Positions 10,448-60,302 of a DNA stretch of 64,000 bases are shown here, one piece after another. Position 1 is the first letter of the stretch. The number at the start of each line of letters is the position of its first letter. The position numbers and the translations under genes were made by a program. Origin of the DNA: Tubulanus polymorphus (taxonomy: Eukaryota; Nemertea; Palaeonemertea; Tubulaniformes; Tubulanidae). Under the pieces are notes generated by a model that saw nothing but the letters and a program-made list of their open reading frames with translations, searched no databases and had not been told where the DNA came from. Where the stretch lies: contig NC_134031.1 in the NCBI RefSeq assembly GCF_964204645.1, positions 7,540,501 through 7,604,500 on the forward strand. The letters are read 5' to 3'.

Positions 10448-10553
10448 ATGTCAGTTGGTGTAATGGTAGAAGATGCTGCAGGAAGCAGAGGTAGTTTATA
10501 TGATAATACAGATTCACTAAGCAGTTTCCAGCTCAACGAGAAAGAACTAGATG
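10448..10553 (+). CDS. CDC7: CDC7 coding exon 1
   Basis: Residues 1-35, an acidic, serine-rich leader before the kinase domain. It ends in phase 1 at GATG|GTAAGA. The sequence ATATTTAG directly before GTAGCTATG could also serve as an acceptor, so an untranslated exon may lie upstream. Confidence 0.75.

Positions 10554-60302: not shown

Follow-up and report, generated by a model that had tools for sequence, protein, structure and literature searches.

Convergent CDC7 and betaglycan genes in the nemertean Tubulanus polymorphus: probably an inherited fragment of a larger, old gene block

Introduction

Conserved ancestral microsynteny of animals was reportedly described by Irimia et al. in 2012. 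More recently, Robert et al. 2022 found that bilaterian blocks of neighbouring genes are largely kept in ambulacrarians and lophotrochozoans, and that 84% of the bilaterian novel blocks have disappeared from vertebrates, an extensive loss explainable by genome duplications followed by paralog loss (PMC8851819). In mammals, a cattle chromosome 3 gene list, the order of which we take as map order, runs MTF2, DIPK1A, RPL5, ... EVI5, ... GFI1, RPAP2, GLMN, C3H1orf146, BTBD8 ... EPHX4, BRDT, two unnamed genes, TGFBR3, CDC7, HFM1 (PMC11331311), and a human optic-disc association at 1p22 has been placed between CDC7 and TGFBR3 (PMC2883590). As far as these two sources go, the pair is common to mammals; a sequence-only reading of the nemertean DNA analysed here had supposed this for human. 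We take human CDC7 and TGFBR3 to be convergent.

Two other mammalian regions bear on the comparison. A human 9q34.3 deletion list holds QSOX2, GPSM1 and DNLZ together (PMC4766673), and a cattle chromosome 7 interval contains XAB2 with EVI5L, an LRRC8 gene, SNAPC2 and TIMM44 (PMC8505495). EVI5 lies near GFI1 in the 1p22-type list and EVI5L lies in the XAB2 interval, a pattern typical of duplicated regions. We take the cattle XAB2 interval to be the counterpart of human 19p13.2, and presumably TGFBR3L is at 19p13.2, ENG at 9q34.1, GPSM2 at 1p13 and QSOX1 at 1q25. No paper naming XAB2 together with TGFBR3L and LRRC8E turned up in a literature search, and the placement of TGFBR3L near XAB2 is thus presumptive.

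Here we analyze a stretch of 64,000 nucleotides of the T. polymorphus genome (the window; C7:7540501-7604500, C7 being contig NC_134031.1). C7 comprises 21,623,276 bases, or 8.07% of the 267.8-Mb, 77-contig genome.

Results

CDC7 (plus strand, 10448-18120) and a TGFBR3-type betaglycan gene (minus strand) are adjacent in the window, convergent (tail to tail) and 14.3 kb apart (Table 1). Splice sites of CDC7 were chosen by a script, and nine of the ten modelled exons were joined into a product of 492 amino acids that begins with the kinase domain, ends at the stop codon and leaves out the putative first exon (10448-10553). When compared to PDB sequences, this product matched chain 4f99 (E=3e-102) and chain 7p5z (E=2e-44), which we take to be human and yeast CDC7, respectively. 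Four distinct PDB sequences were listed at E<=1e-30, all of them CDC7 and none another kinase. The open frame containing the last exon (17812-18120) matched chain 4f99 by itself (E=1.5e-12), and this frame, used as the query, had one genome match at E<=0.001, indicating a single copy of CDC7. Upstream of the gene, a tandem array with a 208-base unit (2.8 copies, 91% matches) occupies window positions 2776-3353.

Table 1. Features of the CDC7-betaglycan region and positions of the marker genes. Plain positions are on the window scale; positions on contigs are prefixed with the contig.
Feature	Position	Strand	Basis
QSOX	C7:7437665-7456632	-	sulfhydryl oxidase 1 chain matched at E=3.2e-21; domains Evr1_Alr and thioredoxin
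CDC7, putative first coding exon	10448..10553	+	ATG at 10448, score of donor 10554, phase fits next exon; putative, by eye
CDC7 exon, kinase domain start	11197..11283	+	acceptor by script; in 492-aa protein matching CDC7 (E=3e-102)
CDC7 exon, ALKH motif	11928..12063	+	script splice sites; in 492-aa match
CDC7 exon	13025..13118	+	script splice sites; in 492-aa match
CDC7 exon, HRDVKPSNF catalytic loop	13512..13654	+	script splice sites; in 492-aa match
CDC7 exon, ALVDFGLA	15093..15213	+	script splice sites; in 492-aa match
CDC7 exon, kinase insert	15721..16136	+	script splice sites; in 492-aa match
CDC7 exon (12 protein letters not shown)	16216..16298	+	script splice sites; in 492-aa match
CDC7 exon	16620..16769	+	script splice sites; in 492-aa match
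CDC7 last exon with stop	17870..18120	+	frame 17812-18120 matches 4f99 (E=1.5e-12); one genome match
Gap between CDC7 and betaglycan 3' ends	18121..32414		frames >=70 aa scanned by eye; repeat comparison; Rfam
Betaglycan last exon, cytoplasmic tail ending SGESTPSSTVPMAV	32415..32509	-	by eye; acceptor 32509 with donor 33128 of transmembrane exon, best-scoring splice pair in the gene
Betaglycan transmembrane exon, matched part (5' boundary not fixed)	33129..33243	-	64% identity over 39 aa, E=4.7e-10; one genome match
Betaglycan ZP-C exon, matched part (RFSF...CQLSMC)	34284..34451	-	E=0.019; ZP piece PDB test
Frame with probable betaglycan ZP-C exon	36248..36577	-	by eye; alone without Pfam match
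Frame with probable betaglycan exon, acidic linker and ZP-C start	37980..38213	-	by eye; alone without Pfam match
Betaglycan ZP-N exon, matched part (NGTHFVL...NCGT)	38711..38794	-	50% identity over 28 aa, E=0.011; betaglycan chain in PDB
Transposase fragment DDE_Tnp_4, betaglycan intron	39755..40381	+	Pfam
BEL/Pao retrotransposon frames, betaglycan intron	40448..45228	+	Peptidase_A17, RVT_1, DUF1759
Betaglycan orphan-domain exon, matched part (second GAVTS motif)	46799..46888	-	alone weak (E=0.043; probe E=1.4); orphan-domain PDB test
Betaglycan orphan-domain exon, matched part (EVHIIE...)	51576..51791	-	E=1.7e-5; orphan-domain PDB test
Betaglycan orphan-domain exon, matched part (first GAVTS motif), most 5' in window	60129..60308	-	E=0.097; orphan-domain PDB test
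Probable upstream betaglycan exon, beyond window	76864-76977	-	E=0.009; inside orphan-domain PDB alignment
Probable upstream betaglycan exon, beyond window	79588-79788	-	E=0.84; inside orphan-domain PDB alignment
XAB2/SYF1	C7:7643655-7657196	-	E=4e-14 and SYF1 HAT models
GPSM1/2	C7:7700112 to about 7740222	+	E=5.5e-76 to GPSM2; GoLoco-like motifs by eye
RPL5	C7, 0.50 Mb		genome search
DNLZ	C7, 1.68 Mb		genome search
RPAP2	C7, 2.94 Mb		partial match, 33/75 positions
GFI1	C7, 3.00 Mb		genome search and two exons read
MTF2-type	C7, 3.30 Mb		partial match, 27/48 positions
BET/BRDT-type	C7, 16.90 Mb		BET model, one locus in genome
GLMN	C3, off C7		genome search
CAMSAP	C8, off C7		CKK model, one locus in genome
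HFM1	scored off C7, identity not positive		weak single-module candidate on C2

Betaglycan was sought on 294 kb using a human TGFBR3 sequence as the probe. Seven of the 11 minus-strand matches in the region form a collinear chain (best score 57 bits; single pieces E=0.84 to 4.7e-10), and control probes, one reversed and 20 shuffled TGFBR3 sequences, gave chains of no more than three matches and no score above 28.9 bits. The 46.8-kb exon falls outside the chain, since the probe paired it with the other repeat of its motif (E=1.4). When orphan-domain pieces from the window and its right flank were compared to PDB sequences, the four hits at E<=0.01 were all betaglycan and not endoglin, the best (E=7.1e-22) in two collinear stretches; this test is only partly independent because several of the pieces had been selected with the TGFBR3 probe, and a single orphan-domain exon gave a weak match on its own (E=0.043). 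With the ZP pieces, four of four hits at E<=0.1 were likewise betaglycan (best E=3.1e-4), and the ZP-N and ZP-C pieces lie in order ahead of the transmembrane exon, with two intermediate exons recognized by eye only. Pfam searches with individual betaglycan frames and a PDB search with the transmembrane frame alone returned no match. The gene resembles the betaglycan/TGFBR3 family in having an orphan domain, ZP pieces, a conserved transmembrane segment and a short tail. It differs in that the transmembrane exon has one genome match at E<=1 and found no second gene, a query that an endoglin-like gene with a divergent transmembrane segment would escape.

Two probable 5' exons (C7:7617364-7620288) lie 13-16 kb beyond the window. 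We therefore dropped position 60302 as the end of betaglycan, which made the gene too short in the sequence-only reading; it measures at least 47 kb, from 32415 probably out to C7:7620288. A signal-peptide first exon considered at 60283-60339 was rejected, no compatible splice being found. The betaglycan introns house the BEL/Pao element, whose frames are split by stops or shifts and which directly follows the DDE_Tnp_4 fragment, and tandem arrays with 153- and 103-base units (window 48233-48655). Short tandem arrays at window positions 58903-59100 and 23499-23685 have units that share the string TCGACTT.

The interval between the two stop codons (about 14 kb) agrees with the intergenic gap that the same reading had given, and the convergent arrangement it had proposed is borne out by the CDC7 and betaglycan matches in gap-free sequence: the window and the 70 kb on each side of it contain no undetermined base (N). 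Inspection by eye of the frames of 70 or more amino acids in the interval revealed no recognizable gene. Compared with the window and 290 kb of sequence next to it, the repeat-like share amounts to 19% in the gap, 40% in 1-10447, 7% in CDC7 and 23% in 32418-64000. A scan of the window matched no Rfam family, and a tRNA scan of the window found none.

An inventory of open frames was drawn from 354 kb surrounding the pair at thresholds of at least 70 to 95 amino acids; small exons and part of the left flank may escape it. Besides receptors and mobile elements, the conserved genes nameable among the frames listed are QSOX, CDC7, betaglycan, XAB2/SYF1 and GPSM1/2, in this order within about 300 kb (C7:7437665-7740222). 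No developmental transcription-factor gene was recognized by eye among the frames listed from the 354 kb. Just left of the window, two rhodopsin-type receptor genes, closely alike and each a single frame, lie on opposite strands at C7:7523399-7524349 (minus strand) and C7:7537152-7538102 (plus strand), the latter frame supplying the 7tm_1 assignment, and a further receptor-like frame was seen by eye at C7:7412995-7414038. In the QSOX-CDC7 interval, a cluster of Polinton/Maverick-like frames, also recognized by eye, occupies C7:7493471-7504465 and adjoins Gypsy-like and DIRS-like elements.

On the scale of the chromosome, six of the nine mammalian neighbour genes searched are on C7 (binomial 1.9e-5, assuming uniform gene density). 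This count takes in all nine marker searches of the genome and excludes QSOX, XAB2 and GPSM because they were found by looking beside the pair. Vertebrates carry four BET genes and three CAMSAP genes; the corresponding models each found one locus here. The Sec63 search for HFM1 gave no match on C7, and a search for mitochondrial COX1 matched nothing in the assembly. Of 965 candidates, the GFI1 search scored 150; the leading one, on C7, was by E-value barely ahead of a zinc-finger locus on C3 (5.1e-30 versus 5.4e-29). Because this lead was slim, both C7 stretches were fetched and read, and they represent two exons of one GFI1-type gene, of which the first agrees with the probe in 50 of 54 positions as far as its exon boundary (counted by eye) and the second in 80%. 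RPAP2 and the GFI1-type gene are 61 kb apart (C7:2936356-3007324), a distance in which other genes may intervene, and GFI1 is 4.5 Mb from the CDC7-betaglycan pair. With six of nine markers on C7, the pair therefore sits inside a conserved linkage group. Two positions speak against a wider block: DNLZ, a close neighbour of GPSM1 in mammals, lies about 6 Mb from GPSM here, and CAMSAP maps to C8.

Six vertebrate neighbour pairs were scored, CDC7-TGFBR3 itself counted, and two of them are kept: CDC7-TGFBR3 and, loosely, GFI1-RPAP2 (61 kb). The four others are broken. RPAP2 and GLMN are on different chromosomes, as are CDC7 and HFM1 by our scoring, in which the identity of HFM1 is not positive; BRDT and TGFBR3 are 9.3 Mb apart, two unnamed genes intervening in the cattle list; and RPL5 and MTF2 are 2.8 Mb apart, DIPK1A intervening in the cattle list. 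The adjacency of the pair is strict, whereas four tested neighbours have shifted over megabases or onto other chromosomes, a contrast that would be predicted by a constraint as well.

The locus resembles vertebrate 1p22 in that CDC7 lies beside TGFBR3 and GFI1 near RPAP2, and in that BET, RPL5, MTF2-type, GFI1 and RPAP2 genes share the chromosome of the pair. Unlike 1p22, it has its single BET locus 9.3 Mb off, GLMN on C3 and HFM1 not found on C7, and betaglycan is followed by XAB2 and GPSM, not by BRDT. With the 9q34 and 19p13.2 paralogous regions it shares relatives of QSOX2-GPSM1 and of XAB2 (which in mammals is accompanied by EVI5L and SNAPC2), which here flank the pair, a layout to be expected had the regions arisen by duplication of a single ancestral block. 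In mammals the regions are on separate chromosomes. In T. polymorphus, DNLZ shares C7 with GPSM, though at a distance of about 6 Mb, and CAMSAP is found on C8.

Discussion

The CDC7-betaglycan pair adds a new, documented case to those already known of conserved ancestral gene order, here with a five-gene context. As in animal ancestral microsynteny in general, functionally unrelated orthologues appear to have been kept as neighbours since an early animal ancestor, and an invertebrate seems to retain a block partly lost in vertebrates through genome duplication. Deep inheritance of the pair is well supported within the scope of the comparison, which is one invertebrate and mammals. We consider it probable (roughly 0.7) that the pair is an inherited fragment of a larger old block and that the contact persists mainly through slow, incomplete rearrangement. 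The ancestral neighbourhood would have been QSOX - CDC7 - betaglycan - XAB2 - GPSM on one ancestral linkage group. Vertebrate genome duplications would then have copied this block, and duplicate loss would have thinned each copy differently, with CDC7 and TGFBR3 surviving in 1p22, QSOX2 and GPSM1 in 9q34.3, and XAB2 in 19p13.2. In the nemertean, slow and incomplete rearrangement within the chromosome may have left the CDC7-betaglycan contact standing. The case fits the account of Robert et al. 2022 as summarized above (PMC8851819). A literature search for CDC7-TGFBR3 with synteny terms, supplementary block tables aside, found no paper treating the pair as ancient.

The sequence-only reading had left the choice between slow rearrangement and a constraint such as shared regulatory DNA. 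The former gains from our data, since C7 keeps six of the nine tested neighbour genes. The latter receives no positive support from the two of six pairs kept, from the human element, primate-specific as described, or from the position of GFI1, 4.5 Mb off. Special constraint is thus probably absent: retention of two of six pairs removes the need for it, partial survival being what slow random rearrangement is expected to produce.

A constraint specific to the pair would place regulatory DNA, serving betaglycan or both genes, in the 14-kb gap, in the CDC7 introns or in the long betaglycan introns, with breakpoints between the two genes selected against. This explanation, which we hold to be unlikely, draws on the strictness of adjacency and orientation while BET has come to lie 9.3 Mb off, with GLMN and HFM1 outside C7, on the strong optic-disc association reported in the human CDC7-TGFBR3 gap, and on a gap that is here only 19% repeat-like in comparison with local sequence. 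However, one element proposed in the human interval is a silencer of GFI1, about 800 kb away, and this silencer overlaps an AluJo element, implying according to its authors that it is primate-specific (PMC7583307). Because it is so described, it is unable to explain a pre-vertebrate contact. Moreover, its proposed target is 4.5 Mb away in T. polymorphus, and the contact of the pair is therefore independent of closeness to GFI1; the level of local pair retention also needs no such constraint. A genomic regulatory block held by GFI1 was likewise rejected, its target being at C7:3.00 Mb and not in the local block, and the human element being primate-specific as described. Somewhat more doubtful still is the idea that CDC7 and betaglycan are locked together by shared cis-regulatory DNA predating the vertebrate genome duplications. 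If true, it would mean that an early control element of betaglycan lies inside or beyond CDC7, and hence that the contact outlived most of the scored local contacts.

Constraint could also act region-wide, with QSOX-CDC7-TGFBR3-XAB2-GPSM kept as a regulatory or chromatin domain. Five genes with 1p22-, 9q34.3- and 19p13.2-type mammalian relatives do lie within about 300 kb, but mobile-element frames (by eye) occupy the QSOX-CDC7 interval, the gene set is dispersed in mammals, and the frames listed include no developmental transcription-factor gene recognized by eye, such that we regard this possibility as improbable. It is less probable again that the two genes were joined independently in vertebrates and in this lineage: given a shared chromosome, the chance of landing within 14 kb is about 0.0013 under uniform placement, orientation aside, and flanking genes from related vertebrate regions are present too. 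In line with the deep conservation that the sequence-only reading had proposed, coincidence is unlikely. A false assembly join between 18 and 32 kb can practically be dismissed, as the window and 70 kb on each side are free of N and such a join would have had to recreate by accident an adjacency known in mammals.

An origin of the pair by inheritance from a larger block has consequences for the vertebrate regions and for the betaglycan family. In the human CDC7-TGFBR3 optic-disc interval, the gene order would come from deep ancestry and the described GFI1 element apparently does not. The order QSOX-CDC7-betaglycan-XAB2-GPSM offers a concrete candidate for the pre-duplication arrangement, from which the three vertebrate fragments are derivable. 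Finally, because the vertebrate duplications are absent from this animal, its TGFBR3-type betaglycan next to CDC7 is of use in working out the sequence in which TGFBR3, ENG and TGFBR3L arose.
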